From: Paenibacillus sonchi
GTDB taxonomy: Bacteria; Bacillota; Bacilli; Paenibacillales; Paenibacillaceae
Reading direction: 5' to 3'
Length of the DNA: 64,000 bases
NCBI RefSeq assembly: GCF_016772475.1
Contig: NZ_CP068595.1
Location: 4,588,001 to 4,652,000 of the forward strand
Part shown: positions 3,090-22,333 of the stretch, in pieces
Position numbering within the stretch: the first letter of the stretch is position 1
How the letters are laid out: each line of letters opens with the position of its first letter
Program-made: the position numbers and the translations under genes
Notes under the pieces: model-generated
What the model saw: the letters and a program-made list of their open reading frames with translations, nothing else
Database searches by the model: none
What the model was told of the DNA's origin: nothing

Positions 3090-4163
3090 TCAGTCCCCAA
3101 CCACCTTCGCCGGACTCGGCGCATTTTTGTTCTTATACACCCACATCGCATACTCCAGCGGGCGCGTTAACGCTTTGCGGTAAGTGCTGCTGTCGCCGGA
3201 GCGGGAGAAGACCTCGCGGGCGGGCTTGGGGTTGACCTCCAGCACGTAGATCTGGCCCTCGCGGTTAATGGCGAGGTCCAGGGCCAGCTCGCAGAGGGTA
3301 CCGAAGCTGTCCTCCAGATAGGCTGCGGCGTCGAGGCCCAGCTTCTCGGCGGTCTTCATCGTTTTCTCGGCCTTTTCCTGGCTGCCGAGCCATTGCTTCA
3401 GCAGAATCTCTGCGCGGATGGCGTGGCCGCCGCCGTGGAGATTGGAGGTGACGCTGCGGGCGGCGCCTACGCGGCCGGCCATGCCGGTCAGCTCCCACAC
3501 GCCCTGGCCGTTCTTTTGCACCAGCATGCGGTAGTCGTGGTAGCGTCCGCTGGGCAGGCGCAGCGGGATGCCCTGCTGCACGAGGAACCGCCCGCCGAGG
3601 CACCACTGGTGCACAATGGACTCCAGGCGGGTGAGCGTGACCTTGCGGGGGGCGATGATCTGCCGGCTCAGGCGGCGTCCCTGGATATCGTATAGGGACT
3701 TGCCTTCCTTCAGCCGCTCAATCCGCAGGATGCCGCGCCCGCCTGTTCCGCTGGCCGGCTTGACATAGACGACCGGGCTGGATTTCAGTATCCGGTGCAG
3801 ATCGGCGGAAGACTGGTATAACAAGGTTTCCGGCATATGCTGCCGGAACCGGCTTTTTTGCGAGAAGGTCTGGTACACGGTCCATTTATTGCGCAGCGGC
3901 CGGTTCAGAAAGGTCAGATGGCCGTAGCGCGCGCGGAAGCGCAGCAGCTGCTCGAACCGCTTGCTGCGCTGAATCCGGCAGCGGTCATAGATCATATTCG
4001 GAAAAGAGCGCCATTTGCGCGACCATGTTCCGCTTTTAACGTCATACACAAGTGCATGAATCTGATCCTTGCTGACGTGCACATCACCGGGTGTAAACAC
4101 AATAACACGTTCATTATAGACATGTATGTAGGAACAGCTTAAACGGCTCTTTATTTTATTCAC
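3090..4163 (-). CDS. YheC/YheD-family ATP-grasp protein, C-terminal portion of a split gene
   Basis: The open frame encodes 357 residues from a GTG at 4163. YheC/YheD proteins are ATP-grasp enzymes associated with the spore coat in Bacillus. The ATP-grasp core is seen: VYVKPASGTGGRGI (lysine and glycine loop), HDYRMLVQKN, and the metal-binding end LDLAINREGQIYVLEVNPKP. The family N-terminus (LGxLT... strand) is absent. The first 24 codons (MNKIKSRLSC...) belong to the inserted element. The genuine coding sequence starts at the 12-bp repeat 4091-4102, where GTG TTT ACA continues in frame from the N-terminal fragment at 22204-22333. Joined, the gene is exactly 1131 bases (377 codons). A strong terminator follows. 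Whether the truncated form is translated is unknown; the GTG has only a weak, distant GGAG. Confidence 0.88.
   Translation of the reverse strand: MNKIKSRLSCSYIHVYNERVIVFTPGDVHVSKDQIHALVYDVKSGTWSRKWRSFPNMIYDRCRIQRSKRFEQLLRFRARYGHLTFLNRPLRNKWTVYQTFSQKSRFRQHMPETLLYQSSADLHRILKSSPVVYVKPASGTGGRGILRIERLKEGKSLYDIQGRRLSRQIIAPRKVTLTRLESIVHQWCLGGRFLVQQGIPLRLPSGRYHDYRMLVQKNGQGVWELTGMAGRVGAARSVTSNLHGGGHAIRAEILLKQWLGSQEKAEKTMKTAEKLGLDAAAYLEDSFGTLCELALDLAINREGQIYVLEVNPKPAREVFSRSGDSSTYRKALTRPLEYAMWVYKNKNAPSPAKVVGD
4091..4102 (+). repeat. Attachment-site core, left end of the 18.1-kb element
   Basis: GTGTAAACACAA, identical and in the same orientation as 22204-22215. It lies inside the yheC/yheD reading frame (minus strand V-F-T codons). 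Left of it is the spore gene; right of it is element sequence. This is one hybrid attachment site (attL or attR). Confidence 0.85.
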
Positions 4164-4381
4164 ATGAAAATGCGAGCTCCAAAGTTAGTGTTTCAGCGGG
4201 GCATTCTTGAATGTGAATTGCTGCCCACGCAAGATTTATTTTATTGCATAGTTTATTGTATCCCTGGCCTTTTACCCAAGCGGTATATAGGCCGATTACG
4301 GCAGCTATAAGCAGGAGTATCGCAGAAATTAAGGCTAGTTTATCTAAATTTCTTGGGGAAACTGGAGGGGATCTCTTTGGT
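4164..4381. other. Left end of the inserted element, non-coding
   Basis: AT-rich sequence between the split gene and the glycosyltransferase. The part at 4103-4121 forms one arm of the proposed attP. GGAGGGG at 4364-4370 is the glycosyltransferase ribosome binding site. Confidence 0.5.
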
Positions 4382-5395
4382 ATGAAAAAGCTGATTAAGC
4401 TTCCGGAAAGCAGAAAATTAACCATCGCACAAGTGATTTCGAACTATCCAAACGCACAGCCGGTCCCTTCCATCAAAGGGGGGACTGAAAAAATTGTTTA
4501 TGAGCTGACGGAAGAGCTGGTTAGACGAGGGCATAAGGTCTATTTATTTGCAGCTCTAGGGAGCAGGAGCAGGGCAAAGCTTATTACCTATCCTAAGGGG
4601 CTCCGCCATGAAAGCATAGCAAGATTTGTGCTGAAAAAATTACCTGAGCGGGTTGATATTATCCATGACCATACTTTCCGTTCCGCGCTTGGCGTAACTA
4701 ATCCTAAGGTTCCAACGGTATGCACTGTGCATATCCCGGTCAAACGGCGGATTAAATACCCTGTATACGTAAGTAAACGCGCCCGCCGGCTGATGGGGAA
4801 CAACAAAGGCTTCTGTGTATACAATGGAATTAATACGCGTGAATATGAATTTAGCACAGAGAAACATTTATATCTGTTGTATATAGGCAGGATTATCCGG
4901 AATAAGGGTGTTTTGCAAGCTATACAAGTTGCCGAAAGGACTGGTAAGACGCTGATTATTGCGGGTCCCGTGAAAGCCTCCAGATTTTTTGAGAGAGAGG
5001 TCAAGCCGCGCATCCGGAACAATCCCAATATCCATTATGTTGGACCTGTGGGCGGGAAAATGAAGCAGCAGCTAATCAAGCATGCGGAATGTGTGCTATT
5101 CCCCACATTATGGGAAGAACCCTTCGGTCTGGTCCTGGTTGAAAGTTTAGGTTGCGGGACTCCGGTGCTGGCGCTCAGAAATGGTGCGGTACCGGAAGTA
5201 TTATCCGGATTTCCTAACCTGGTTTGTAATAACATAAGTGAGATGGCAGTTAAGGTCCGGCAGAAAAAATATCCTTCGCCGCACTTATTGAGAGCGTATG
5301 TTCAGAAACACTTCACCAATAAGCAGATGACTGACAGTTATTTAAGAATATACCATGAAGTTATTCAAAGAGAATCCGGTATGAAGAAATTCTAA
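4382..5395 (+). CDS. Glycosyltransferase family 4 (GT-B fold)
   Basis: A 337-residue retaining glycosyltransferase. The N-terminal Rossmann domain opens with IAQVISNYPNAQPVPSIKGGTE, typical of GT4 proteins, where the GG loop contacts the sugar nucleotide. The C-terminal domain has LYIGRIIRNKG and the E-x7-E motif (EEPFGLVLVE, about 264-273) that binds the donor. It has no signal peptide or membrane segment. Start ATG 4382 follows GGAGGGG by 11 bases. It is the leftmost gene of the element, points right, and is visibly AT-richer than the other cargo genes, hinting at a separate origin. Donor and acceptor are unknown. Confidence 0.85.
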   Translation: MKKLIKLPESRKLTIAQVISNYPNAQPVPSIKGGTEKIVYELTEELVRRGHKVYLFAALGSRSRAKLITYPKGLRHESIARFVLKKLPERVDIIHDHTFRSALGVTNPKVPTVCTVHIPVKRRIKYPVYVSKRARRLMGNNKGFCVYNGINTREYEFSTEKHLYLLYIGRIIRNKGVLQAIQVAERTGKTLIIAGPVKASRFFEREVKPRIRNNPNIHYVGPVGGKMKQQLIKHAECVLFPTLWEEPFGLVLVESLGCGTPVLALRNGAVPEVLSGFPNLVCNNISEMAVKVRQKKYPSPHLLRAYVQKHFTNKQMTDSYLRIYHEVIQRESGMKKF

Positions 5396-5450
5396 GCTGC
5401 CAAAGGCTGAGCTGAACGGACAGGAGTTTTTGATTTTCTTTTGCGCAAAG

Positions 5451-5487
5451 GAGCGTGCCTCCCATGAGGAGCCACGCTTCTTTATTG
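5451..5487. terminator. Bidirectional terminator between the GT4 and solute-binding genes
   Basis: GAGCGTGCCTCC pairs with GGAGCCACGCTTC (one mismatch), followed by TTTATT. It separates two convergent genes. Confidence 0.6.
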
Positions 5488-5514
5488 CCGGTATGGTGAT
5501 TGCTGTGACAGTGC

Positions 5515-7046
5515 TTACTTCTGCTTGGCGTACCATTCGGAAAATTGTTTCTGATATTCAGCGATGTATTTATCAATCCCCGCTGCTTTAAGCCTGTCCA
5601 GCGCTTTGGGGAAGGCGGTGTCATAATCGCTGAAGCCGCTGCCGATGGGTGCGAGGTATTCCGTGAATACGCCGTTCAGCTTCGTTTCTTCATTCTTGAC
5701 CGGTGTATTGTCAAAGTTGAAGCCGGCACCCTTGGAAATGATTGCCCCATCGTCCCAAGCCTTGTATTCAGCGATGAATTCGTCCGGAACGGTGTTGTCA
5801 AAACGGATGAAGTTTTTGTTCATCAGCAGCCAGTCGGGGATCAGCGAATCGGTGTTTATTTTGGTCAGACGCCCGTTCTCGTCCACCGTATAATCCGTTC
5901 CCTTTATCCCGTAGGCGAACAAGTCGTACAGCTCCTGGTTTTTTTGCAGCAGATTGAAAAACATCACATAGCGCTCAGGGTCTTTGGCTGCGGTAGAGAC
6001 GAAGAAGGCGGTGCTGTACGTGCCGCGGCTGATTTTTGGCCGGCCGCTGCCAAGGAAATAATTGACCAGCTTGGCCTCAGGCACTGCTTGTGAAATCGTT
6101 GCCGCCCCTTCAAAAGGGCGTGCCGCTGTACCGGCCCAGAACATCGCTTTGCCGGAGTTCCAGTCAGACTGCAGCTGCGGAACATTGGTGGCGGCATATT
6201 TCGGGATGATTCCTTTTTCATACCAGCCGCGCATCAGGTTCGCATACTTCTTGAACTCCTCGGTTTCAAACCAGCTGATGATTTTATCATCTTTCGCAGA
6301 CTCGTCCAGGGCAATAAAATCATTTTGCCAAAACAGGTTTTTGTCCGTGTAATCATATTGCAGAATCCGGCGGGCATCGGTGTTGGCGTACCCGATCAGT
6401 TCGGGATGAATGGCATGCACCTTATCATAGAACTGCTCCAGTTCCTTCAGCGAGGTGACCTGCGTCATGCCGGCTTCCTCCAGCAGATCCTGTCTGACCA
6501 GCGCGCTGTAGAACTCCGCAGAATTCGGCTTATTGCCGACTGGAATTGCATACTGCTTCCCATCTAGTTGAAAGGCCTTGAAGGAGGCCTCGTCGACATT
6601 TTTACTCAAATCGGCTGCTGCACTGACATAGGGGTAAGGTCGGCATAAAGCCCTTTTGCCACAGATTTCACCATGTAATTGGCATCCGTGTAGGTGGCGA
6701 AGTCCTCTCCCGTAGACAGCATCAGGTCGGTTTTGCCGCCGCCGTATTCTGTCCAAGGCAGAAAATGAAATTCAACCTCAGCGTTAATTTCTTTCTTGAT
6801 TACGTCGTAGAACTCTGTCTTCGCCAGTTCCTTCATCCGGTTCGATTCATCCCCGTACAGCACAATTTTCAGTTTGGCGGGAGCCAATGGGCTGCCGTCT
6901 TTACTGCCGTTATCCGTAACGGAAGGAGTACCTTCATTTCCGCTTCCGGTACTAGGGGCAGCGCTTTCATTGTTGCCCTGAGAACAGCCGCTTACCAGGA
7001 ATACCGCTGCCAGGAGCAAACTTAACCAACCTTTTTTCTTTTTCAT
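5515..7046 (-). CDS. Extracellular sugar-binding lipoprotein of an Lpl/Ytc-type ABC importer (frameshifted as read)
   Basis: About 510 residues when the two overlapping frames (7046-6606 and 6756-5515) are joined. It captures oligosaccharides outside the membrane for the permeases upstream. A lipoprotein signal peptide is clear: MKKKKGWLSLLLAAVFLVSGC with the lipobox Cys, then a Ser/Gly-rich tether. The mature part matches the family-1 solute-binding fold of LplA/YtcQ type. The frame breaks at the GGGG run 6631-6634; one more base restores ADLTPYVSAAADLSKNVDE. The operon order on the minus strand is permease, permease, binding protein. No ATPase gene is present, as usual for importers that borrow the MsmX ATPase. 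Start at 7046 follows AGGAGGG. Confidence 0.85.
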
Positions 7047-7185
7047 GATGAACCCTCCTGAATAGAATCATAATGTTTGAGGCATCTATTGCAAAGGTCG
7101 TGCTCCCTTAAGTCTTATTGTACATCAAGGTGCAGGGGAGCATAAACCCGGTGCAACCGGATATCATAGGGCATTTTGTTGGGAA

Positions 7186-8070
7186 TTAACCTTTGACCGA
7201 ACCCACAATAATGCCTTTGACAAAAAAGCGCTGGAGAAAAGGATATAATATGGCGATTGGCAAAACGGTCAGGCAGGTCATCGCCATTTTGGCTGTCTCC
7301 AGCGGCGGTGCGATGATAGCTCCACCGACCTGAGCCGCATTGCCGGAGGCCAGGAACTGGATGTTCGCCATCATGTTGTACATTAAATATTGGATCGTAT
7401 AGAGCTTCTGATCCGTTACCAGCATTAGCGGCAGATAGAAATCATTCCAGAACTGCAGCGCATAAAAAAGCGAGATTGTGACCAGCCCGACCCGGCCCAG
7501 CGGAATCATAATGCTGAAGAAGATCCGCAGATGTCCGGCACCGTCGATTTGCGCAGATTCCACGATTTCATGCGGGATGCTGCGGAAATAGTTTGCCATG
7601 AGAAACATCAGAAAAACACTGAGCACATAAGGGATGAACAGGCCGATAAGAGTATCGCCCAAATGATAATATTTGGTGCTGAGCAGATACCATGGCAGCG
7701 TTCCTCCGCTGAACAACATCGTGAAATAGGCGAAGAAGGCGAAGAAATTTTTGAGCCGGAAGCTTTTAACAGATATGACATAGGCGTAAGCGGTGGTCAC
7801 CAGTACGGCCGACACGGTGCCGAGCACCGTAACGATCACCGACATGGAATACGCCCGCAGAATCTGCTGCGCCTTGGAGCCAAACAGGAATTCATATGTT
7901 TCAAAGGTGAAGCCTCTGGGCCAGAACGAATATCCTTCCGCAGCGATTCGGGATTCGGTGGATAATGAGCCGGATACGGCCAGAATAAACGGCACCAGAC
8001 AGATGGCTGAAAATATAGCTATACAGCAATAAAAGAAAATGAGCAGGCCTTTGTTTTCGGTATTTAGCAT
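7186..8070 (-). CDS. Carbohydrate ABC transporter permease, LplC/YtcP type
   Basis: A 294-residue inner-membrane permease with about six transmembrane helices. The cytoplasmic EAA loop (EIVESAQIDGAGHLRIFFSI, about 181-200) docks the ATPase. The C-terminus FVKGIIVGSVKG is typical of the LplC/YtcP subfamily, which in B. subtilis belongs to importers of complex plant-polysaccharide fragments. It starts 12 bases after the upstream permease and is followed after 139 bases by the binding-protein gene, so the three form one operon. Start ATG 8070 follows AGGAGA. Neighbouring pectin enzymes suggest galacturonate- or rhamnose-containing oligosaccharides as cargo; that is inference. Confidence 0.9.
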   Translation of the reverse strand: MLNTENKGLLIFFYCCIAIFSAICLVPFILAVSGSLSTESRIAAEGYSFWPRGFTFETYEFLFGSKAQQILRAYSMSVIVTVLGTVSAVLVTTAYAYVISVKSFRLKNFFAFFAYFTMLFSGGTLPWYLLSTKYYHLGDTLIGLFIPYVLSVFLMFLMANYFRSIPHEIVESAQIDGAGHLRIFFSIMIPLGRVGLVTISLFYALQFWNDFYLPLMLVTDQKLYTIQYLMYNMMANIQFLASGNAAQVGGAIIAPPLETAKMAMTCLTVLPIAILYPFLQRFFVKGIIVGSVKG

Positions 8071-8082
8071 CTTATCAGTCTC

Positions 8083-9063
8083 CTAGAATAGTTTGCTGTC
8101 CTTGTCATACCAGCCAGCCAGCTTGTTGGCTACCAGAACCAGAATGAAGCCAAAGACGGATTGATAGAGCGTGATCGCTGAAGCAAAGCCGAATTCTCCG
8201 GAACGGATGGCTGTGCGGTATACATACACATCGATAATGTCGGTAGTAGGCAGAAGCAGCGGATTCAGGAAGGTTACTCCCATAATCATGCTGAGATCGC
8301 CTTTCAGCATGCCCCCGATGCCCAGCAGCGTCATTAGAATGATCGACGGAATAAGCATTGGCACCGTAATCCTGGTAATAATCTGCCATCTGGAGGCACC
8401 GTCGATTTTTGCGGCTTCATAATAGGAAGTGTCGATGCCTTGCAGGACCGCATAATAGATGATGGCGCCGTAGCCGGCGCTTTTCCAGATATTCGCCAGC
8501 ACTAGAATGATGACGAACAGCCAAGGGCTGGAATACCAGTCGACCTGGGAGATGCCGAGCGTTTGGAGCAGCTGGTTCATAATGCCTTTGTCATAATCCA
8601 GCAGGGAGAACAGAATTGCCCCGATAATAATCCAAGAAATAAAGTACGGAAAAAACATGACGCTCTGCGTGATTTTGATAAACCACTTGCTGCGCAGCTC
8701 GTTCAGGATAATAGCGATGGCCACTGAAAAAAACGTACCGGTCAGCATATATAGCGCATTTAGCATGACCGTGTTGCGTGTAGCCCTGAGAGAGTCTTCC
8801 ATGCTGGAGAAGAAAAACTCGAAGTTGGAGAAGCCGGCCCACGGGCTGCCGAAGATGCCGTCGTTGAAGTTGTAATTCTTAAAGACCAGAATCAGACCGC
8901 TCATCGGCAGATAAGCAAAAAGAATCAGAATGACGATCCCCGGAAGAGCGAGCAGGTATAGTGTGCTGTCCTTCTTAAGGGATTTACGGAAGCTTTTGGC
9001 TCTGGCCGCCCTGATTCCCGGACTTAGCCGTCCCTGTGTTTCCGGTGTAGCCTCTTGCATCAT
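8083..9063 (-). CDS. Carbohydrate ABC transporter permease, LplB/YteP type
   Basis: A 326-residue permease and the first gene of the leftward importer operon. An N-terminal cytoplasmic extension is followed by six transmembrane helices, with the EAA loop YYEAAKIDGASRWQIITRIT at about 218-237. It pairs with the LplC-type permease to form the channel. Start ATG 9063 (an ATG ATG pair) follows AAAGGAG by 10 bases. A perfect CcpA-type cre sequence lies 89 bases upstream, suggesting glucose repression of the whole operon. Confidence 0.9.
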   Translation of the reverse strand: MMQEATPETQGRLSPGIRAARAKSFRKSLKKDSTLYLLALPGIVILILFAYLPMSGLILVFKNYNFNDGIFGSPWAGFSNFEFFFSSMEDSLRATRNTVMLNALYMLTGTFFSVAIAIILNELRSKWFIKITQSVMFFPYFISWIIIGAILFSLLDYDKGIMNQLLQTLGISQVDWYSSPWLFVIILVLANIWKSAGYGAIIYYAVLQGIDTSYYEAAKIDGASRWQIITRITVPMLIPSIILMTLLGIGGMLKGDLSMIMGVTFLNPLLLPTTDIIDVYVYRTAIRSGEFGFASAITLYQSVFGFILVLVANKLAGWYDKDSKLF

Positions 9064-9151
9064 TAACAGTCCACTCCTTTATATAGCGTTATCATTTCTG
9101 TCCCTTGTTTCAGGAGAACGCTTTACAGGGAAATCATAAATCGGCCCGGAA

Positions 9152-9165
9152 TGTAAACGCTATCA
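9152..9165 (+). promoter_or_regulatory. cre (CcpA) site upstream of the importer operon
   Basis: TGTAAACGCTATCA matches the cre consensus TGWAANCGNTNWCA at every defined position. Its location upstream of the leftward permease operon fits carbon catabolite repression. Confidence 0.65.
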
Positions 9166-9324
9166 TAATAAACGAAAAAAAGTTAAAAAAGCGGAAAAGG
9201 ACGGATTAAAAAAACAGAAAAGATATCACTTTTTTGTTATTTAGGCGTGAAAAAGCCTTATTTAAAGGGGGGATTGCACAGAATATGCGGGGTGAAGGGG
9301 TTTCATTAAAAGACAAACAAGGGG

Positions 9325-9359
9325 GATGCCCCCGGCTGTGAAAATGCTGCCGGGCATCA
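9325..9359. terminator. Hairpin at the edge of dispersed repeat copy A
   Basis: GATGCCCCCGGC pairs with GCCGGGCATC (one bulge). It immediately precedes repeat copy A; copy B at 45841 is also preceded by a small hairpin (CACCC/GGGTG). Confidence 0.45.
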
Positions 9360-9363
9360 CCTT

Positions 9364-9671
9364 TGTTCTTGTATAGGAAATTATACAGTGTAAAAAAATG
9401 TGGATATCTTGGAAGCCTTAGAGGATATAAGCGATGCAGAAGGATTGGGCTCCATCCGCGGACTGATGCGGACAGAGGAGCCCTTATTTCTCCAAAAATC
9501 CTACTTTTTCGGCAGTTACGGACTCAGGAGCCGTTAGATCGTTCGATGGAGCCTGGAATAAAGGGGAAAGGGATAAATAAAGGCATCTCTGTCCGTAGTC
9601 CTGCGGAATAGGCGAATCTTCTATCCATAACGGCTTTCCTGTCCGTAACGGCTGCGGATAGCTCGTGAAGG
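9364..9671. repeat. Dispersed ~310-bp repeat, copy A
   Basis: Aligns almost end to end with 45841-46150 at roughly 90% identity by eye, from TTGTTCTTG to GTGAAGG. It has long-range pairing: GTTACGGAC (9515-9523) with GTCCGTAAC (9641-9649), and AGCCGTTA (9529-9536) with TAACGGCT (9628-9635). No conserved reading frame is seen, so it is a non-coding element. Confidence 0.8.
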
Positions 9672-9773
9672 AATAGGGCGATCCGTCTTCAGCATGCCCC
9701 CGTTGATTTTGGAGCGGTGGGGAGCCGGCGTAAGATTCATGGGGAATCGTTCTCCAGGTAACGTTAGAACAAA

Positions 9774-9817
9774 GACGGCTGCGCTATCCCGTGGAGGATG
9801 GCACAGCCGTTTTTATT
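9774..9817. terminator. Terminator of the AraC sensor-regulator gene
   Basis: ACGGCTGCGC-ATCC pairs with GGAT-GCACAGCCGT around a short loop, with TTTTTA on the plus side and CTTTGTT on the minus side. It lies 21 bases after the stop at 9838. Confidence 0.65.
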
Positions 9818-9837
9818 CCTTGCTTATTGCGCGGCAA

Positions 9838-12068
9838 TCAGGAGGATTCCTGTTTCTGCAGAATATGATTCATTCTCCATTTGGAGGGGGTAACCCCAAA
9901 ACGCTTTTTAAACTGGGTTGTAAAATAAGTGCTGCTATTGTAGCCCACCTTCTCTGCAATTTCCCGGATATCTAAGCTAAGCTCAGTGACTAATAACATC
10001 TGTGCCTGCTCCAGGCGCAGCAGGTTAACGAAATCGGGAAAGCTGCAGTTGACCTCGTCGGCAATCAGCCTGCTGAGATAAGCGGGGCTTAGCGACAGCT
10101 TGTCGGCAAGCGCATTAAGGGAGAGTCTGGAGTCGTCATAATGATCCCTGATGTAACAAATGGCTTCTACAGCAATGCTCTTGGTCTGTACAGCGCTCAT
10201 GCTGGCAATCCGCTCAAGGGCGGTATTACAGCTGTCTACAATCCAATGCAGCAGCTTGTCATAGCTTTGAATCTGCCAGATGCGCTGGTAATTATCTAGA
10301 AAGCCGGATTGCTGAACGTCTGCATTAAGCTCAGCCGTGCGGCTGAGCTCAAAGGCCAGTCTCGCCAAAGCGATGGTGGCTGACTCGGCGCGGTAACTGC
10401 AGGCTACGGCCAGCAATCGTTCCACCGCCTGCGGAATATGGCCCGAAAGCTCCGTCTGCCTAACGGCTTGCAGCACCGGTTCAAGGGCGCTGTCAGGCAT
10501 GGGGCTGCTGTTGAGATGGATGGTATCATCCGCAAAGATGATGTTCTGGTGTACATGAAATTTAATATACTGCAGACTGTCCGCAGCCTCGTTGTATTTG
10601 GCCCTCAGCAGGTGTAAATCATCCGTCAGTCCGCTGATTCCTAAGGCGCAGCTGACATCTGAATGCTGAAGCCGGGCTGCAATGTCCTCCCATTTGCCGC
10701 GGAACAAGGCGTAATCGTCAAAGCTGCCGCTTCTCAGCTCACTTAGAATAAGCACAGCAGTTCCCTGATGCGGATGGAAGGATTGAACGGCCGCAAGTTC
10801 GGAGAAGGCCAGTTCAATCTGCTCAATGCCCTCCCCGAAGGTCTGCCCGGAGCCTTCAGATGGTTCGGACTCCAGCAAAGTTAGTACGCATACACAATAT
10901 GCTCCCCCGGAAGCGGCTATGCTCATCATCGGCGTACTGCTGTTCTCCGGGGTTCCCGGGGGGACAGCAGCCACCGCATCAAGGCGCTGTCATCGCTTTC
11001 TTTCTTGAGCTGCTCCAGCTTTACGCCAATCTGCTCCAGTTCCTGGCTTACGGTATCGAAATCACCGCCTGTCTTCAGCGCTTCTTCATTGCCGGACAGA
11101 TGAACGATATTGCCGAACAGCCGGCCAATCGGCTTATACATTCGCCGTGAGATCAGGTTGGCGGTTAGGGCAGCGGCAATAATCAATGCTAAGCACAGGC
11201 CGGTCATCAAGGTGCGGGCATTGGAGATATCGCGGATGCTGTCCCTGTAGGAAGTCTCCGACACAAACCATAGCTTGTCCGCAGCAGAATATACATAGGT
11301 AATCAGCTGCGGCTCTCCGCTCCCCCTGTAGACAAAGGAGCCTCTTTCCGGGGAGGAAGCCACTACCTGCTTCAGCATGCCCTCCTCCAGCGGGGTATCG
11401 AGTGCACTGTGCATGAGCACGGATGCATTTCCGTCCAGCACCGCGTAACGGGTGATTTCTCCCTCTTTTTGAGTGAACAGATTGTTCTGCAGCTTGCCCA
11501 GATTGACGGTCAGTGCTACCGCCCCGTAATATTCGCTGTCCGCAAACGCCCGGTCGTTATAGAACACGGTGAGCAGAGTGATTGGGGTACCGTTGTTCAA
11601 GGTTGCCTCCCACAGAAACGGTGACTCAACAATCACATTCTTCCGCATCCGCGAGAACAGCTCCAGCTTGGATTCCGGGCTTAGCGGCAGGTTCTCAAAC
11701 ATCGCAACAGGTTCATCTACCCCCATGATGTAGGCGTTCTCCATATACTGGTTAACAACCAGCGCCCCGCGGATTTGGCTTAAGGCACTGTACAGCTGGT
11801 CGCTCCAGCTCGTATCTCCGTTCATCATGAGCGCGTTGATGTTCGGATTCCTATAAAAGTCCATAGCGTAATTCTGGACGATCTCTTTATAGTTTATAAA
11901 AACGGTTTCAGTATTCACCAGCACATTCTGATTCGCCTTGTTGACATTATCTATCGTAATATTCCGGTACCAATAAAAGATCACAACGGCCAGCACAAGA
12001 ATGCAGCAGACTGAAATTGCGGTCAGGCTCATAAAAAAGCGGGTGTATAATTTCTTTCTTTTTCCCAA
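9838..12068 (-). CDS. Membrane sensor AraC-family regulator, YesS/YtdP type (frameshifted as read)
   Basis: About 743 residues when the frames 12068-10926 and 10974-9838 are joined. Order: N-terminal transmembrane helix (about 15-35), extracellular Cache-like sensor, second transmembrane helix (about 290-310), HAMP-like stretch, a linker, and a C-terminal AraC DNA-binding domain with two helix-turn-helix motifs (LSLNALADKLSLSPAYLSRL and IREIAEKVGYNSSTYFTTQF). The frames meet at the G6 run 10958-10963; one added base restores continuity. B. subtilis YesS and YtdP share this architecture and sit in pectin clusters, so it probably senses plant saccharides and activates the flanking operons. Start TTG 12068 has AAGGGG 8 bases upstream; GTG 12077 is the alternative. 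Confidence 0.85.
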
Positions 12069-15306: not shown

Positions 15307-15314
15307 ATCAATTT

Positions 15315-16199
15315 CTACGGATGATGGAAATCCGTCTTGACCTTCCGCGAAGGGTGTGACCTTGCTTCTTTCCGGTATTGGAGCGGGGTCAGACCGGTTG
15401 ATTTTTTGAAGGTTTTATTGAAATGGGAGAGATGTTCAAATCCGACAGCGGAGGCGATCTCCTGAATTTTGCCTGTGGACCCGGCAAGCAGGCGTTCGGC
15501 TTCCCTTACGCGGACATGAACGATGTATTCCCGAAAGTGAAAACCCGTCAGCCGGTGAAAGACCCGGCTCAGGTATGAAGGACTAATGTAAAAATTACTC
15601 GCTGTCGCTTCCAGAGTCAGGGCTTCACGGTAGTGATCGCGGATATAGGTGGCAACATCGGTTACCAGATGATGAAGCGGATGTTTGGTCCCGCCGGCCT
15701 GTGAGATGTTCTCTGAACGCTGGAGAAGAATCATCAGCTCGGTGAATAAAGTGATTATGCTGGTTTCGTAATAGGACCGCTGCAGCCGGCATTCTTCCAG
15801 CATGCGGTTCATCAGGCTTTCCGCTTCGTCCTGCTCGCGCAGGTTCAGCTTGAACAGGCGGTACCCGCGGCCATGAAACCAGATGGCTTCATTCTGCAGG
15901 GAAGGCGGCAGAAGAGCGGGGTCATAATTGATCAGAATCCGTTCAAATTCGGCGACTTCAGAGCTTGCTGTGGAATGAAGCTCCCGGCTGGAAATAAGAA
16001 TAAGCTCCCCCTTATGAACCGTAATGACCCGGTCGTCCACAAAGTATACGCGCTCCCCCTGCATCAGATAGTACAGCTCGGTTAAGTCATGGCTGTGGGG
16101 ACGCGGCATTGCGGTAATGCCTTTACGTTTCATATGCTGGATGCTGTAGCGGCCTTCTTCAATATGATATTTGTGATTGGGACTGGTCAGGCTGGTCAT
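15315..16199 (-). CDS. AraC-family transcriptional regulator with cupin sensor domain
   Basis: A 294-residue regulator. The N-terminal cupin region contains RPHSHDLTELYYLMQGE (about 34-50), where the ligand binds in this family. The C-terminal AraC domain has two helix-turn-helix motifs (LTLEATASNFYISPSYLSRV and IQEIASAVGFEHLSHFNKTF). It lies convergent with GH28 and divergent from pectinesterase with only 73 bases between start codons, so it probably controls the pectinesterase-esterase-GH105 genes. Start ATG 16199 follows AAGGGGAG. The inducer is unknown; a pectin breakdown sugar is the natural guess. Confidence 0.9.
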   Translation of the reverse strand: MTSLTSPNHKYHIEEGRYSIQHMKRKGITAMPRPHSHDLTELYYLMQGERVYFVDDRVITVHKGELILISSRELHSTASSEVAEFERILINYDPALLPPSLQNEAIWFHGRGYRLFKLNLREQDEAESLMNRMLEECRLQRSYYETSIITLFTELMILLQRSENISQAGGTKHPLHHLVTDVATYIRDHYREALTLEATASNFYISPSYLSRVFHRLTGFHFREYIVHVRVREAERLLAGSTGKIQEIASAVGFEHLSHFNKTFKKSTGLTPLQYRKEARSHPSRKVKTDFHHP

Positions 16200-16272
16200 A
16201 ATTCTCCCCTTCTCTTACGGAGCGTTACGGTTATTATAGAATAAACTTAGGTTGACAGGAAAGGAGCCGCAG

Positions 16273-17163
16273 ATGTTAATTACAGTCTCGAAGAGTGTCG
16301 GTGAAGGGTTCAGCAGTCTACAGGCAGCGCTGGATTCCATTCCGCAGGAATACAAGGAAGCAGTAACGATTCGCATCAAGCCCGGCATTTACGAGGAAAA
16401 GGTTACAGTAAAACAGGGAACACCTCCGGTTCTCCTGCTGGGGGAGGACACGAATTCCACTATCATCACCTGGTCAGACAACGCCCACACTTTAGGTCCG
16501 GACGGAGAGCCGCTTGGCACATTCAAATCCGGCACCCTGAATGTATTCGCCGAACATTTCACGGCTGAGAATCTGACCATCCGGAATGCCTCCGGTCCCG
16601 GCACCGGTCAGGCGGTGGCTGCTTTTGTAGATGCTGGTCATGCCGTATTCCGGCGTGTACGCCTGCTGGGTGACCAGGATACTTTGTACACGGGGCAAGG
16701 GAAACAATATTATAACGAATGCTACATTGAAGGCGATGTGGATTATATTTTTGGCGCTGCTACGGCTTTGTTTGAACGCTGCCGGCTGCATAACAAGCGT
16801 TCCAGGGGATATATTACAGCCGCATCAACGCCCGAAGGCACACCGTTTGGTTATGTGTTCCTCGATTGTGAAATTACCAGCGGTGAAGGGGTAAGCGAGG
16901 TGTATCTTGGACGCCCATGGCGGCCTTATGCCCATGTGGCCTTTATCCGCACTGTCATGGACAGTTCGATTATCGGGGAAGGCTGGCATAATTGGGGGCA
17001 GCCGGACAGGGAGGAAACCAGCCGCTATGAAGAATATGGCAGCAGTGGCCCGGGGGCCAATCCTGAAGCCAGAGCTGCCTGGTCGCGGCAGCTGATTCCA
17101 CAGGAAGCGGCGCAGTATAGGGTGCTGTCCGTGCTTGACGGGTGGCATCCCGAAGGCTATTAA
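16273..17163 (+). CDS. Pectinesterase (carbohydrate esterase family 8)
   Basis: A 296-residue parallel beta-helix enzyme that removes methyl esters from galacturonan. The CE8 catalytic set is visible: LLGDQDTLYTG (first Asp, general acid), GDVDYIFGAATALFE (second Asp, nucleophile) and YLGRPWRPYAHV (Arg that fixes the carboxylate). There is no signal peptide, unlike most secreted bacterial pectin methylesterases, so it fits cytoplasmic handling of imported esterified oligogalacturonides. Start ATG 16273 follows AAAGGAG; an in-frame TTG at 16252 would add seven residues. The next gene starts 17 bases downstream, suggesting one operon. Confidence 0.92.
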   Translation: MLITVSKSVGEGFSSLQAALDSIPQEYKEAVTIRIKPGIYEEKVTVKQGTPPVLLLGEDTNSTIITWSDNAHTLGPDGEPLGTFKSGTLNVFAEHFTAENLTIRNASGPGTGQAVAAFVDAGHAVFRRVRLLGDQDTLYTGQGKQYYNECYIEGDVDYIFGAATALFERCRLHNKRSRGYITAASTPEGTPFGYVFLDCEITSGEGVSEVYLGRPWRPYAHVAFIRTVMDSSIIGEGWHNWGQPDREETSRYEEYGSSGPGANPEARAAWSRQLIPQEAAQYRVLSVLDGWHPEGY

Positions 17164-17180
17164 GGGAAGGAGCACTTCGG

Positions 17181-18208
17181 ATGGAGCCTCTGGAACAATA
17201 CATGGAAAAACTGGTTCGGTCAACACAGCGCAATTCGGCATTCAGCAAGGATATCCCCTTTCAGCAGTGGCGCGACGGGCTTGCCGCAGCTTTTACAGAG
17301 CGGCTGGGCGGCTTTCCGGAAATAGCTGAAGAGCTGCGGCCGGTTTTTCTGGAACGTACCGTCTGCTCCGGGTATACCCGAGAACGTATAGAGATCACTA
17401 CCTATGAAGGACTTCGCATGCCGCTGTATCTTCTGCTCCCGGATCAGCCGCTATCTACCCCTGCCCCTGCCGTTCTTGCCATTCATGGACATGGCTACGG
17501 AAGCCGGGAGATCGTCGGCTTGGACCCGGGCGGAGCGGAGCGGCCGGGAGATCCCGGGCTGCATAAGGACTTCGCGGTTTCACTGGCAAGACAGGGCTTT
17601 GTAGTGGCTGCCCCGGAACTGCTCGGCTTTGGCGACAGACGTCTGGAAGAAGACCTGACCAGCGGCGAGCCTGGACGTAATTCCTGCTTCCGCCTGTCTT
17701 CGGCACTGCTGATGGCCGGGAAGACGATGGCCGGTTACCGTATCTACGAAACCATGAGAGCACTGGATTATTTGCAGACAAGGCGCGAGGTTAAGGGCAG
17801 TCACATTGGAATTATCGGTATTTCCGGCGGCGGACTGGTGGCTGGCTTCACAGCCGCGCTTGACCAGCGGATCGCCTGTGCGGTCGTAAGCGGGTATGCC
17901 AATACCTTCGCGGACAGTATTCTGACGCGCAATCATTGCCTCGACAATTATATACCGGGGATACTGCTGGAAGCGGAGATGCCTGATCTTCTGGGCCTCA
18001 TTGCCCCGCGCGGCCTGTTCCTCGAATCGGGCGATGCCGATCATCTGTTTGGCCCCCGGGGGCAAGAATTGCTTTAGCCCGGTTGGAGAGTATTTACGGG
18101 GCAGCACATCATTCCGGGCAGGTTGAGGCGGACTTCTTCACCGGAGGTCATGAGATTCATGGCGGACCGGCCTTTGCCTGGCTGCGGAAGCAGCTTGCCG
18201 GAGCATAA
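17181..18208 (+). CDS. Alpha/beta-hydrolase esterase of the pectin cluster (frameshifted as read)
   Basis: About 342 residues when joined across a frame break. The fold is a dienelactone-hydrolase/acetyl-xylan-esterase-like alpha/beta hydrolase: oxyanion region AVLAIHGHGYG (about 95-105), nucleophile elbow IIGISGGGLVAG (Ser), the Asp in LESGDADHLF, and the His in DFFTGGHEIHGG. The first frame stops at 18074; the C-terminal part ARLESIYGAAHHSGQ...LRKQLAGA continues in another frame to TAA 18206-18208. One missing base near the C5/G5 runs at about 18052-18061 explains it. It probably removes acetyl or similar esters from pectic oligosaccharides. Start ATG 17181 follows AAGGAG. Confidence 0.8.
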
Positions 18209-18245
18209 GGTTAGACTCATATGGATGATTAACGAAGGAGGAATA

Positions 18246-19376
18246 ATGGTGTCTATAACTGAAGCAACAAGCGTTCGCTGGTCCGCTAAAATCGCGGATA
18301 CGATTCTTGGAAGGTGCAATGAGCAGGGAGAGGATGAATATGTGCTGGAACGGTGGGCTTATGTTCCGGGCATGCTGCTGATGGCAATGGCCCGGGCGGG
18401 TGTCCAGCTCGGCCGGCCGGAGTATGTCTCCTATATGGAGCGGCATATGGACACATTCATTGGAGAGGATGGTTCCATTCGGACCTACAGGCTGGAGGAA
18501 TACAACCTGGACCAGATCAATGAGGGCAAAAATCTGTTCTTGCTGTACCAGAAAACAGGAGAAGACCGGTATGCCAAGGCAGCCGATCTGCTGGCCGCAC
18601 AGCTTATTGGACATCCCCGCACCTCCGAAGGAGGATTTTGGCATAAGAAGGTATACCCTTTCCAGATGTGGCTGGACGGGCTGTACATGGCATCTCCATT
18701 CCTGGCAGAATACGGCAAGGTCTTTCAACGTCCTGAACTGATTGACGAGGCAGCGCATCAGCTGCTGCTGGTCGAGCGGCGGACCCGCGATCCGCGTACT
18801 GGCCTGCTCTACCATGGCTGGGATGAATCCAAAGAGCAGGAATGGGCTGACTCGTCTACCGGATTGTCCTCCCATTTCTGGAGCCGGGCGATGGGGTGGT
18901 ATGCGATGGCTATGGTTGACTGCCTGGAGCATTTTCCGCTCGCTCATCCGAAGCGGGGGACAGTCACCGGTATTTTTCAGCGGATGTGCGGTGCGCTTCT
19001 GGAGGTCCAAGATAAGGAGACCGGCCTTTGGTACCAGGTGCTCGATCAAGCGGGGCGAAAGGGCAATTATCTGGAAGCTTCCGGCTCCTGCATGTTTGTG
19101 TATGTGCTGGCCAAGGGGCTGAGACTGGGTTATCTGGAACCGTCTTTTAAAGAGGCGATGCTGAAAGGTTATGGGGGCATTGTGGAGCATTTGACTGAAG
19201 AGGACGAACACGGCGTTCACTTGCATCATATCTGTCATGGGGCGGGTTTGAGCAAGGACCGCAATGGCTCATATGATTACTATATCTCTGAGGAGGTGCT
19301 GTCGGATGTGCCTATGGGGGTAGCTCCCTTATTATTAGCTTCCCTTGAAGTGGAACGGTACCAAGCAGACAGTTAA
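18246..19376 (+). CDS. Unsaturated rhamnogalacturonyl hydrolase, glycoside hydrolase family 105
   Basis: A 376-residue (alpha/alpha)6-barrel enzyme of the YteR/YesR type. It hydrates the 4,5-unsaturated uronic acid left by pectate or rhamnogalacturonan lyases, releasing a keto-sugar. The conserved VYPFQMWLDGLYMASPF (about 137-153) carries the catalytic Asp, and SHFWSRAMGWYAMAMVD is the second family block. It has no signal peptide, in keeping with the family. Start ATG 18246 follows AAGGAGG. It is the last sugar gene of the operon and ends before a strong terminator shared with the convergent recombinase. Confidence 0.92.
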   Translation: MVSITEATSVRWSAKIADTILGRCNEQGEDEYVLERWAYVPGMLLMAMARAGVQLGRPEYVSYMERHMDTFIGEDGSIRTYRLEEYNLDQINEGKNLFLLYQKTGEDRYAKAADLLAAQLIGHPRTSEGGFWHKKVYPFQMWLDGLYMASPFLAEYGKVFQRPELIDEAAHQLLLVERRTRDPRTGLLYHGWDESKEQEWADSSTGLSSHFWSRAMGWYAMAMVDCLEHFPLAHPKRGTVTGIFQRMCGALLEVQDKETGLWYQVLDQAGRKGNYLEASGSCMFVYVLAKGLRLGYLEPSFKEAMLKGYGGIVEHLTEEDEHGVHLHHICHGAGLSKDRNGSYDYYISEEVLSDVPMGVAPLLLASLEVERYQADS

Positions 19377-19411
19377 CGATAATCCCAGGCCAAGTGAAGT
19401 TCTGCCCGGAA

Positions 19412-19447
19412 GACAGACCGCCGGTTCTCAGCCAGCGGTCTGTCTTT
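19412..19447. terminator. Bidirectional terminator between GH105 and the recombinase
   Basis: A perfect 10-base stem GACAGACCGC / GCGGTCTGTC followed by TTTATA. It lies 35 bases after GH105 and overlaps the 3' end of the recombinase on the other strand. Confidence 0.75.
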
Positions 19448-20999
19448 ATAGACGCGGATACAGGAATATCTCAAATTGCTCTTTATACTGGCCAGGTCCC
19501 TTTTTATAAACGACTTTGTTCAGCACGGATTTCAATAACGCATTTCTGCTCATGGGATTGTCTGTCTGATAGTACGATTTAACTACAGATTCTGCAAGCG
19601 GGATGATCTTGCTTCCCGCTTCTTTCCGGGCCAATTCCAGATCCAGGTCCTTCTGCACTTTGTTGATTCCCTCGGTAGCTGCTGTTATCCGCTCGGAGAT
19701 ATCCTGTGAACGCTCCATAAACATCTCTTCCGTATAAATCCCTCTTTCCAGGAAATCGAATAGTTTTCCCCTCTGGTTCTCCAGCTCCTTTAATTCATTT
19801 TGCAGTGAGGCCAGTGCCCGTTCTTTTAACCTGATTCCGTTGTGTGGAGCCGGATGGTTTCTCTTTCCCCATTTAATCTTATAGCCGCTTAACCAAAGCT
19901 CAAGTCCTTCGATAATCCGGGCTTCAACGGTATCATATCTGCTGCTGCGCGTAGAACAGCCGGCTGTGCTGCAGCGAAAATGAGCCGGTTGTCTGGTGTA
20001 CGGCCGGTAAACCATGGTCCTTCCGCACTCGGAGCACTTTACAAGTCCGGCCAGAGCTGATGTCATTCTGGGTTTGCCATCCATATTGTATTGATGCGGG
20101 GAGTGATGATGCTCTGAGAGCCTCCGCTTTGCCTTCAGGAAGGTTTCGCTGTCGATAATGGGTTGATGTTTTCCGTGTACATCAATCCACTCAGCGCGGC
20201 TTCTATGGCGTGATGAGCGGTGTCTGCTTCCGTCCTTGCTCTTCTTTACCTCTTTCTTCCCCCATTGAATTCTTCCAATGTACACTTCATTTTTTAAAAT
20301 AGTTAAGACAGAAGAAGCTGACCAGCTGCCGCCTTTATAAGAGGGGACCTTAAGCCGTTCCAATTCAGCCGCAATTTTATTTCCGCCTTTTTGTTGTCCG
20401 GGATCTTCATGGGTGTACCAGGCGAAAATTTGTTTTACGATTTCCGCCTGTTCCGGGTGGGGCTTCAAAGTGCGGCCGCGACCCTCGGGGAGCTTCTCAA
20501 TCAAGTATCCGAAGGGCGGGCGGGTACCTATAAAGTTACCTTCTTCTGCAGCGCGCTTCCGGCCTCCCTGCATCCGGCGGGTAATAATTTTGAGCTCTTT
20601 ACGGGCCATAAAAGCTTCAAATTCACTGTATTCCTCATCAAATTCATCCATCAGGTCATAGGTCTTCCGCGGGGTTATAATCTTGGTCTTGGCTGAGCGG
20701 AACGTCTCCAGGATCAATCCCTGCTCCTGCATATTGCCGCGTCCAAAACGGTCAATATCCATTACCAGGACAGCATCGTATTCACCAGATCCGACCTCTT
20801 GTAATAGCTGCAGCATTTCCGGACGGTGGACTAAGGTTTCACCGCTGACGATCTCTTCGCGGATACGAATGATATTTAAATTTAATTGCTTGGCAAGTTT
20901 GAGCAGGGCGGCCTTGTGCTTGGCCAGGGTTTCACCTTCACCGCGGCGTTCCGCATCTTCATCTGCTCTGGATTTTCGCAAGTAAAGAGCTACATCCAA
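19446..20999 (-). CDS. Large serine recombinase (site-specific integrase/excisionase, SpoIVCA-like family)
   Basis: A 517-residue recombinase. The N-terminal resolvase domain starts DVALYLRKSRADE with the catalytic Ser at about residue 10, and includes VMDIDRFGRG with a catalytic Arg. The Recombinase domain follows (TRPPFGYLIEK...; WSASSVLTILKNEVYIG), then a zinc ribbon with CSEC and CSTAGC (about 335-360), and a C-terminal coiled coil that controls synapsis. These enzymes integrate and excise DNA between short attachment sites. It is 1.2 kb from the right repeat of the element, so it is the obvious agent. TTG 20999 is preferred because AAAGGGG lies 9 bases upstream; it abuts ATG 21008, too close to serve it. 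Confidence 0.92.
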   Translation of the reverse strand: MDVALYLRKSRADEDAERRGEGETLAKHKAALLKLAKQLNLNIIRIREEIVSGETLVHRPEMLQLLQEVGSGEYDAVLVMDIDRFGRGNMQEQGLILETFRSAKTKIITPRKTYDLMDEFDEEYSEFEAFMARKELKIITRRMQGGRKRAAEEGNFIGTRPPFGYLIEKLPEGRGRTLKPHPEQAEIVKQIFAWYTHEDPGQQKGGNKIAAELERLKVPSYKGGSWSASSVLTILKNEVYIGRIQWGKKEVKKSKDGSRHRSSRHRSRAEWIDVHGKHQPIIDSETFLKAKRRLSEHHHSPHQYNMDGKPRMTSALAGLVKCSECGRTMVYRPYTRQPAHFRCSTAGCSTRSSRYDTVEARIIEGLELWLSGYKIKWGKRNHPAPHNGIRLKERALASLQNELKELENQRGKLFDFLERGIYTEEMFMERSQDISERITAATEGINKVQKDLDLELARKEAGSKIIPLAESVVKSYYQTDNPMSRNALLKSVLNKVVYKKGPGQYKEQFEIFLYPRL

Positions 21000-21041
21000 T
21001 ATATACATCCCCTTTAGGTTAAAGGAAAATATTTATGGATG

Positions 21042-21050
21042 TATTATATG
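21042..21050 (-). promoter_or_regulatory. Possible -10 element of the recombinase gene
   Basis: On the minus strand CATATAATA. It contains TATAAT (sigma-A) and also fits the CATA-N3-TA form of mother-cell sigma-K and, with one mismatch, the CATACAAT -10 of sigma-E. No good -35 for any of these was found, so the sigma factor is undecided. Confidence 0.35.
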
Positions 21051-21158
21051 GGGGCTAGCATGAAAAAAACACATTCGCAAGATTAAAAATAGGAGCTGAC
21101 TACCGTGGTTGTCCCCCGGTCCTCCCGGCATACACATAATGCCAGGGGGGATGCCGGC

Positions 21159-21308
21159 ATGATTGTTGCAACCTACACATTAGGCGAGACAAAGGTTTAT
21201 ATCTGCGATGACCATCTTGTTACAGACCCGGATGAACGGGAGAGAGTGGAGATTGCTGTTGCTGATGCCGCCTGGGCATGCCTGCAGGACAAAACAGTGC
21301 TGGAATGA
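21159..21308 (+). CDS. Small hypothetical protein next to the recombinase
   Basis: A 49-residue acidic protein (MIVATYTLGETKVYICDD...). ATG 21159 has AGGGGGG 8 bases upstream; the frame could extend to GTG 21105 but that start has no site. It reads away from the recombinase gene, from which it is separated by about 160 bases. I do not recognise a domain. The position next to a serine recombinase suggests an accessory role, such as a directionality factor, but nothing in the sequence shows this. Confidence 0.5.
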   Translation: MIVATYTLGETKVYICDDHLVTDPDERERVEIAVADAAWACLQDKTVLE

Positions 21309-21472
21309 AGAAGCATTATCATTATGCCTCTACACATAGCTTCAACAAGAGGCTGATTCATAATCAGAATTCATTCCGCGTCAAATAATCAGATGGTTAA
21401 TCCATCAACCTTAGTGCTGTGAGAATGTTCCACATTTGGGTAATAACTATTAATCAGATGAGGAGGTATATC

Positions 21473-22153
21473 ATGAAAAAAATATGGTTTACAACAGCGA
21501 CTAGCATTCTTCTGTCCGCCTCAATCCTTGGTGCATGCAGTAACAATGAAACAGCGAATGAGGCGGAGCCTACAGCGTCAAGTGCAGCGGCTACGCCTGT
21601 TGTTGAAGCTACAGCCGCTCCTGAGCCTTCTGCTGCTCCCGCAGCCACGGAGGCGCAGGAGTCCGCCAGTCCGGACGATACGGGTCCTCAGGCATCCGAA
21701 CGTCCGAAAACCCGGACATTCGGTGAACAGGAGGGAGGGGTTTCAGGTCAGACAGGTACACTTGAGCAAGGTGACGGGTATTCCCTGTATGTGTTTGAGG
21801 ACTTCACATTAGATGCACAGTCCGGCCGTTTATCACTCACTGAGGACCCCGCCTATTATGCTGATATCGAACATCTGCCAGCCGGTTACGATCTCGCCGC
21901 TCTGAAGCAACAGGGACAAACTGAACTTTCTGCAATGGGTAAGGTAAGTGACCACAGCGGGGAACTGTTTGAACATCCTCTGGGTTTTGCAGATTTATAT
22001 CTGCAGGCTGCCGGTGATAAGGGAATAGAGGATTACATGGTGTGGAAGAATCAGGCGGGGGAAGCTTTTCTTTTCCGGATACACAATCCCAAGGGTGAAT
22101 TGTCGAATAAATTTGTTCCGTGGGTCATGGTTTCACTGGCAACACTGGAATAA
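21473..22153 (+). CDS. Hypothetical lipoprotein
   Basis: A 226-residue predicted lipoprotein. The signal peptide MKKIWFTTATSILLSASILGAC ends in a lipobox, and the mature protein starts with an Ala/Pro/Thr/Ser-rich spacer (about 23-75) before a globular domain of about 140 residues. The globular part (GYSLYVFEDFTLDAQSGRL...) is not one I can name. AGGAGGT precedes the ATG by 5 bases. It is the last gene inside the element, ending 50 bases before the right attachment core. Confidence 0.75.
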   Translation: MKKIWFTTATSILLSASILGACSNNETANEAEPTASSAAATPVVEATAAPEPSAAPAATEAQESASPDDTGPQASERPKTRTFGEQEGGVSGQTGTLEQGDGYSLYVFEDFTLDAQSGRLSLTEDPAYYADIEHLPAGYDLAALKQQGQTELSAMGKVSDHSGELFEHPLGFADLYLQAAGDKGIEDYMVWKNQAGEAFLFRIHNPKGELSNKFVPWVMVSLATLE

Positions 22154-22192
22154 AGTTAAGAGGTGCCGAAATCACTAGATCTGCAAATACGT

Positions 22193-22333
22193 CTATAAAA
22201 AACGTGTAAACACAAAGACATCCAGGTCCATTCGGCTGCCTTCAATAATCATTTTCCGGTATACGCTTTTCTCTTCGAGCTGTTTCGCATCGTTCATATA
22301 GAGCGTAAGGATGCCTAAGACGGGTTCTGGCAC
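22193..22333 (-). pseudogene. YheC/YheD-family protein, N-terminal fragment of the split gene
   Basis: Forty-six codons from GTG 22333 to TAG 22193. The sequence PEPVLGILTLYMNDAKQLEE...GSRMDLDVFVFT is the characteristic N-terminus of YheC/YheD proteins, and stops being homologous exactly at the 12-bp repeat. The last three codons (RFL) and stop are element sequence. AGAAGGTGA lies about 8 bases upstream. It overlaps the end of the GNAT gene by 19 bases, so it is the last member of the yhe operon. Joined to 4090-3090 it makes a 376-residue protein without any other change. Confidence 0.88.
22204..22215 (+). repeat. Attachment-site core, right end of the 18.1-kb element
   Basis: GTGTAAACACAA, identical to 4091-4102. 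To the right is the yheC/yheD N-terminal coding sequence; to the left 22191-22203 is element sequence containing one attP arm. Confidence 0.85.

Follow-up and report, generated by a model that had tools for sequence, protein, structure and literature searches.

A serine-recombinase element in a yheC/D gene of Paenibacillus sonchi is probably a skin-type sporulation-gene intervening element

The skin element in sigK of Bacillus subtilis, with its recombinase SpoIVCA, interrupts a sporulation gene. Here we describe an element at positions 4091–22215 of a 64,000-nucleotide stretch of Paenibacillus sonchi (the window; contig NZ_CP068595.1, positions 4,588,001 to 4,652,000), which splits a gene of the yheC/D family. 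Several comparable systems exist. C. difficile skin has the recombinase CD1231, for which a sigmaA-type promoter is reported, and the accessory protein CD1234 (PMC5025042). SPbeta in spsM uses SprA together with the small protein SprB as the minimal unit (PMC4191935). The element gin in the mother-cell gene gerE of B. cereus is non-phage and has three recombinases and a recombination directionality factor (RDF) (PMC5595907). The prophage-like yin in yabG of one C. botulinum strain has a recombinase, a putative RDF and a short att repeat, and its excision was shown (PMC10747680). Finally, vfbin in spoVFB has been named as an intervening element (PMC4191935, PMC5595907). The literature searched, which lacks most subscription papers, yielded no earlier description of an element in either yheC or yheD. 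We consider it likely that the element described here is a skin-type sporulation-gene intervening element, in which the yheC/D gene would be restored by a recombinase and a small protein through excision in the mother cell.

The element is bounded by a 12-bp direct repeat, GTGTAAACACAA, which is present in exactly two copies in the window, at 4091–4102 and 22204–22215 (expected from 100 dinucleotide shuffles, 0), and which is the longest word common to the boundary stretches 3090–5400 and 21000–22333. On the minus strand, the N-terminal part of the split gene (22204–22333, 43 codons) starts at GTG 22333 and ends in the repeat. The C-terminal part (3090–4102 including the repeat, minus strand, 333 codons and a stop) matches Pfam ATPgrasp_YheCD with an E value of 3.6e-74 and has homologs in relatives. 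Joining 3090–4090 with 22204–22333 gives 1131 bases, that is, 376 codons and a stop, with the frame open throughout and the residues ...DLDVFVFT-PGDVHVSKD... across the junction. The joined product is a YheC/D ATP-grasp family protein, to which intact homologs align from codon 1. The split gene comes last in a yhe cluster on the minus strand, in which the gene at 22871–23980 is likewise ATPgrasp_YheCD, and a strong stem-loop past its stop, seen by eye at about 3007–3041, is likely a terminator. A large serine recombinase is encoded inside the element, near its right end, at 19446–21008 on the minus strand. The repeat, the exact in-frame join, the YheC/YheD identity and last place in the operon, the terminator and the location of the recombinase had all been put forward in a preliminary description of the window, and they were confirmed, the terminator as a likely one.

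A search with the left fragment gave 30 loci. Of these, 24 match the joined protein over its whole length; five, the window's included, stop at codon 36–43, and one is cut by a contig end. We also searched 100 genomes of the genus with an intact relative as query, taking the best match per genome. The gene is uninterrupted in 91 (with one in-frame stop in two, G014 and G085), split in seven and not assessable in two (G025 and G029). The seven split genomes, G000 (that of the window), G028, G031, G015, G032, G070 and G116, are interrupted at the same site, and the joined frame is open in each of them, with no stop or frameshift in either half. Exactly these seven encode a recombinase with at least 85% identity to that of the window (next best, 54%), the recombinases of the six sister elements being 85–98% identical to it. 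The preliminary description had proposed looking in relatives for an intact fused frame and for the same insertion; both exist, the insertion in six more species, and the two halves do not stem from different paralogs, as both align to one continuous frame in relatives. This distribution also bears on the possibility that the N and C parts are separate proteins and the split state is the functional one. Although in the window an in-frame GTG precedes the C part inside the element, giving a 357-aa frame, the N part has only 43 codons, its frame stops three codons into the element, and the gene is continuous in 91 of the 100 relatives. We regard this possibility as very improbable.

The elements measure, from core coordinates, 18.1 kb in G000, 24.2 kb in G028, 27.7 kb in G031, 26.0 kb in G015, 71.2 kb in G032, 64.8 kb in G070 and 76.0 kb in G116. 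The first four (18–28 kb) carry sugar cargo and the other three (65–76 kb) conjugation-like genes. In the four cargo-sharing species, both gene halves are under purifying selection. The C part shows 83 synonymous versus 39 nonsynonymous changes, summed over three partly overlapping pairs (P = 2e-24 against neutrality), and 34 versus 14 for G000–G031 alone (P = 1e-11). The corresponding numbers for the N part are 6 versus 5 over three partly overlapping pairs (P = 0.019) and 4 versus 3 for G000–G031 alone (P = 0.047). The recombinase has a nonsynonymous-to-synonymous rate ratio (w) of 0.085–0.117 in four pairs among the cargo elements. The synonymous divergence (dS) between G000 and G031 is 0.15–0.20 in three neighboring host genes and 0.16 in the C half of the split gene; within the element it is 0.19 for the GT4 glycosyltransferase gene, 0.25–0.27 for three cargo genes, 0.28 for the recombinase and 0.35 for a lipoprotein gene. 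These values are consistent with an insertion that is old and shared, and they show some excess within the element.

The attL core (4091–4102) and the attR core (22204–22215), both read on the plus strand, contain the predicted crossover dinucleotide AC at 4099–4100 and 22212–22213, respectively. We built attP with the P arm from attR (GTCTATAAAAAACGTGTAAAC, 22191–22211, plus strand) and the P' arm from attL (AATAACACGTTCATTATAGAC, 4101–4121, plus strand), the latter being an inverted match to the former. In all seven elements the symmetry axis of attP lies between core positions 9 and 10, with 15–18 of 24 positions in agreement versus a mean of 5.4–6.7 elsewhere, and this symmetry places the crossover at AC (core positions 9–10). 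No clear symmetry was seen at this axis in attB. The crossover proper is narrower than the 12 bp over which the cores are identical. Two cores differ by a single letter: position 8 of attL in G031 has a letter absent from attR, and position 11 of attR in G070 has one absent from attL. Provided that both letters come from the host, the exchange falls between them, which fits AC.

A comparison with the sigK element of P. barcinonensis also fits a crossover at AC. Over the 28 bases of the P' arm beside the crossover, the G032 element and this sigK element are identical (CACCCACGTCTATGATGTGGGTGTTATT), and the other six yhe elements agree with it at 21–25 positions, the window at 21. The next two letters after the arm, in window orientation, are AC in all seven yhe elements and GA in the sigK element. 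Coding constraint contributes to the identity as well, because the arm of both G032 and the sigK element covers the final codons of the recombinase gene, its stop included.

The recombinase of the window has 520 aa with Pfam Resolvase, Recombinase and Zn ribbon domains, and a TATAAT upstream of its gene is conserved in all seven elements. Its best match among solved structures is YokA (SprA), with an E value of 1.6e-49. A family search of 394 genomes (E ≤ 1e-100) gave a match in 32, and the three matches at 64% identity adjoin sigK. Among 80 relatives on genome contigs, 26 have a sigK fragment within 900 bases, five have a spoVFB fragment and two are yhe; the remaining 47 have no sigK, spoVFB or yhe fragment within that distance, some because their contigs end there. 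NCBIfam searches on five loci identified SigK in four and dipicolinate synthase subunit B in one, each cut short. We computed a tree of 87 of 168 sequences (three duplicates removed, then the closer or labelled ones kept) with a quick method and SH-aLRT support only; the yhe labels were set by hand because the recombinase lies far from the gene in the cargo elements. The yhe clade has a support of 100, and its sister is the sigK recombinase of P. barcinonensis (support 92). The rows next outward are sigK or unassigned, and every assigned non-yhe row in that part of the tree is sigK. Six rows beside the dipicolinate synthase subunit B gene form a separate clade (support 98), so vfbin has the same recombinase family as the yhe elements but a separate clade and a different target. 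The yhe recombinase is thus nested in the tree among sigK-splitting recombinases, the skin lineage. By this nesting, the target would have changed from sigK to yheC/D, and the element appears to be of the skin type but redirected to another gene. The sigK of the window genome itself is an uninterrupted 233-aa frame.

The recombinase gene abuts attL in G032, G070 and G116; in the four cargo elements the two are separated by about 15 kb of sugar genes, and more. At the protein level (E ≤ 1e-6), the recombinase and a small protein of 49–67 aa are the only products common to all seven; the remaining hits found in all seven are frames overlapping those two genes, one of which extends into an ORF of the large elements. 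We scanned 52 of 56 listed ORFs of G032, 38 of 45 of G116 (the list covering all but its far end) and 36 of 45 of G070, and the families named are those among the first 25 listed for each. Every large element encodes two FtsK-type proteins. Rha and a DnaD-like loader occur in G032 and G116, M23 and M78 peptidases in G116 and G070, and TraG-, T2SSE- and CpaB-type proteins in G116. From these families we read the large elements as conjugative and not as phages, a reading that is clearest for G116 and least clear for G070. We discarded a prophage label for them, since the PHROG hits named terminase and endolysin are probably the FtsK/TraG-like and M23 families that Pfam assigns in G116 and G070; G070 has tail-protein, tail-fiber and tyrosine-integrase-type PHROG hits besides. 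Neither phage structural or packaging families (PHROGs on 3 of 15) nor transfer genes were found among the 15 proteins of the window element scanned.

These contents raise the question of whether the elements are ordinary integrative elements that use yheC/D as attB, with random or stress-induced excision outside developmental control, and with most sporulating cells simply lacking an active copy of the gene. The FtsK-type ATPases and M23/M78-type peptidases of the three large elements, together with the TraG- and T2SSE-type ATPases of G116, argue for such a lifestyle, as does the fact that our scans with consensus patterns established no sporulation promoter. The window element, however, has no such genes among the proteins scanned, and yet its recombinase and both gene halves are under purifying selection in four species. 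Selection on the halves requires frequent restoration of the gene, and the recombinase is nested among sigK-splitting ones. An ordinary integrative element is therefore unlikely in our view, though it is the most serious of the competing explanations.

The small protein is encoded at 21105–21308 on the plus strand (a frame of 67 aa, or of 49 aa if started at the internal ATG 21159), and by analogy with SprB and CD1234 (PMC4191935, PMC5025042) we propose it as the RDF of the element. Homologs occur near the next four genus recombinases (E values 1.8e-6 to 7e-4) and in sigK elements; the homolog in the viral contig L203, which encodes exactly the P. barcinonensis recombinase, has 61% identity. 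In all, 21 of 170 loci have a homolog at E ≤ 0.05 within 3–5 kb flanks; none was found within the 1.5-kb flanks of 13 loci. The profile matches 47 proteins, those with a name being mostly called hypothetical protein. An N-terminal stretch of the small protein is conserved, reading M.VP....H....RGDA in many cases. A hairpin-helix core is predicted at low confidence (AlphaFold mean pLDDT 63). Foldseek with this model gave no significant hit (best E 4.3), and two of its 13 sub-threshold hits are the SPbeta RDF. With hhalign, SprB does not match the profile and shows no detectable homology to the small protein, though both appear by eye as a hairpin plus a helix; no PHROGs match was obtained. The stretch CATACACATA upstream of the 49-aa start was dropped as a candidate site, as an alignment of 17 relatives suggests that it codes for the conserved N-terminus.

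A possible course of events can be proposed for the skin-type intervening element. A large serine recombinase would have integrated an ancestral mobile element at codon 43–44 of the last yheC/D gene, which is of the spore-coat ATP-grasp type, and the element would now consist of a plant-polysaccharide utilization island, the recombinase and the putative directionality factor. The recombinase, expressed from a sigmaA-like promoter with the conserved TATAAT, might hold the element, and the gene would remain split in vegetative cells and in the forespore line. Once the small protein is made, the recombinase would pair attL with attR, cut at AC and rejoin the ends. Excision would then release a circle and leave a restored 376-codon gene to be expressed. 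In B. subtilis, both yheC and yheD are members of the sigmaE regulon, and SpoIIID raises their expression (PMC517825). A sporulation role of the split paralog may be expected by analogy with these genes and from its Pfam YheC/D family. Given the place of yheC/D in this mother-cell program and the kin of the recombinase, excision would most likely occur in the terminal mother cell, so the island would not be lost from the spore.

Several observations weigh against this proposal. Neither a chromosome lacking the element nor a circle was seen, with no reads available to search. Other yheC/D paralogs are intact, including in the same cluster, so the split copy might be dispensable. The w of the C half among the four cargo genomes, 0.12–0.24, is somewhat higher than that of intact pairs (median 0.104, 5–95% range 0.046–0.159; 29 of 30 intact loci, without G012, which failed the start pattern), and constraint may thus be partly relaxed. 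The dS of the recombinase, 0.28–0.42 for G000 versus G031 or G015, exceeds the host dS of 0.13–0.20, which leaves vertical descent of every part unproven. A 2-bp deletion in G031 and G015 shifts the frame of the N-terminal stretch of the small protein. Promoters were scanned with sigmaE and sigmaK consensus patterns at thresholds of at least 12/15 and 9/10, respectively, and with 338 background stretches. Upstream of the small gene no match to either reached its threshold in any of the seven elements. Upstream of the recombinase gene a weak sigmaE-like match of 12/15 is present in six of the seven, but 30 of the 338 background stretches have one too. Moreover, these seven upstream sequences are homologs of one another, and the conserved TATAAT also reads as sigmaA. 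The same scan gave sigmaK-like matches upstream of the recombinase of 10/10 in G031 (background 1/338) and 9/10 in G015 (background 9/338), and one of 9/10 upstream of the yhe operon.

The intact paralogs, the frame change in the small protein and the slightly raised w would also suit a dead insertion, in which a dispensable yheC/D paralog is broken and the element is immobile. Six other C-terminal copies of the gene, excluding two remote yhe fragments (G095 3558–3917 and G116 4685–4891), were tested: three are frameshifted (two with a stop too), two are truncated (one also frameshifted) and one is open. Whereas five of these six are damaged or truncated, neither half has a stop or frameshift in any of the seven split genomes, and the C half and the recombinase retain a synonymous bias. 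We therefore find a dead insertion improbable.

In comparison with the described systems, the locus combines a split sporulation-family gene that removal through the repeat would restore in frame, a recombinase encoded by the element and, in all seven elements, a symmetric attP of the large-serine-recombinase type. The insertion in yheC/D rather than sigK, with the window's own sigK uninterrupted, sets it apart from skin proper. It shares with skin the large-serine-recombinase family, with relatives beside SigK fragments, and a split mother-cell-type gene with in-frame rejoining and a small accessory protein in the element. We liken the TATAAT before the recombinase to the sigmaA-type promoter reported for CD1231 (PMC5025042). 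SPbeta resembles it in the unit of recombinase plus small protein, the recombinase identity being 28.5%. Like gin, the window element is non-phage, lies in a mother-cell-type gene and has a recombinase and, putatively, an RDF, but here there are one recombinase, a carbohydrate island and a history common to four species. As in yin, the target is new and coat-related, and there are a recombinase, a putative RDF and a short att repeat; here the target is hit in seven species, with no phage genes among the scanned proteins of the window element. The preliminary description had placed the element in the skin/SPbeta class, with a sugar cargo instead of a prophage. The in-frame split, the recombinase, its phylogeny among sigK-splitters and the absence of phage families in 15 scanned proteins support this. 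Non-phage elements that interrupt such genes were already known, however, gin being one (PMC5595907).

The element adds a yheC/D target and a carbohydrate island to the small class of developmentally spliced genes. In addition, the 47-protein family without assigned function, with members near these recombinases, gains a testable role. We tentatively entertain, at somewhat less than even confidence, a broader idea: recombinase, small partner and attP arms may form a portable gene-splitting cassette, which moved from sigK to a coat ATP-grasp gene with its arms kept and the crossover dinucleotide changed from GA to AC, and which then served conjugative elements and a metabolic island. If so, mother-cell genes would be germline-safe docking sites for useful cargo, with no phage needed. 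Since a sigK and a yheC/D element share an att arm, how such elements change target genes could be tested directly in vitro, using a single recombinase on two att pairs.

The cargo of the window element begins on the left with a GT4-type glycosyltransferase by Pfam (4244–5395, plus strand; the frame common to G028 starts at about 4388). A DUF3502-type solute-binding lipoprotein (5515–7046, minus) follows as two overlapping frames, where G028 has one 510-aa frame; this is decay or a sequence error. Next are two BPD_transp_1 ABC permeases (7186–9063, minus) and an AraC-type regulator with an adjoining frame that has no Pfam match and looks sensor-like by eye (9838–12077, minus). The enzymes comprise a GH43 glycosidase (12251–13345, plus), a GH28 polygalacturonase-type enzyme (13852–15306, plus), a pectinesterase (16252–17163, plus), an alpha/beta hydrolase (17142–18077, plus) and a GH88-family glycuronyl hydrolase (18123–19376, plus); a further AraC regulator lies at 15315–16199 (minus). 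At the right end there is a small gene, lipoprotein-like by eye and of no named family (21473–22153, plus), which is common to G028 and G031.

Some sister elements carry other genes. Complete germinant-receptor operons (GerA, spore permease, GerC) lie inside the G031 element (L035 6228–9916) and the G032 element (L041 1040–4772), and the G015 element has frames similar to such operons. As GerA of G031 and GerA of G032 share only 32% identity, the germination cargo was probably acquired more than once. At the right end of the G031 element (L035 10853–11050), a second, partial recombinase (codons 455–520) adjoins the lipoprotein gene and is perhaps a relic of a tandem insertion. The G028 element has, in sequence that the window element lacks, a 444-aa frame that resembles a group-II-intron reverse transcriptase by eye (L032 7612–8946).

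The damaged yhe C-terminal copies (L112, L113, L114, L115 and L076) belong to G101, G120, G110, G082 and G031, respectively. Those of G101 and G120 adjoin an intact gene, and the copy of G031, at 6.03 Mb, adjoins a recombinase frame of 41% identity. From these copies, the region downstream of this yhe gene looks like a hotspot. In G095 (L111, G095:C1:2474000-2492500, 5754–13785), attL and a yhe C copy come first, then other DNA of about 5.9 kb that contains a frame of 1363 aa, and then an intact yhe gene with attB. This open sixth copy is 99.5% identical to its own adjacent intact gene, whereas the closest among 35 other genomes reaches 94.5%, which suggests, without proving it, that interrupted and excised versions once coexisted in G095.

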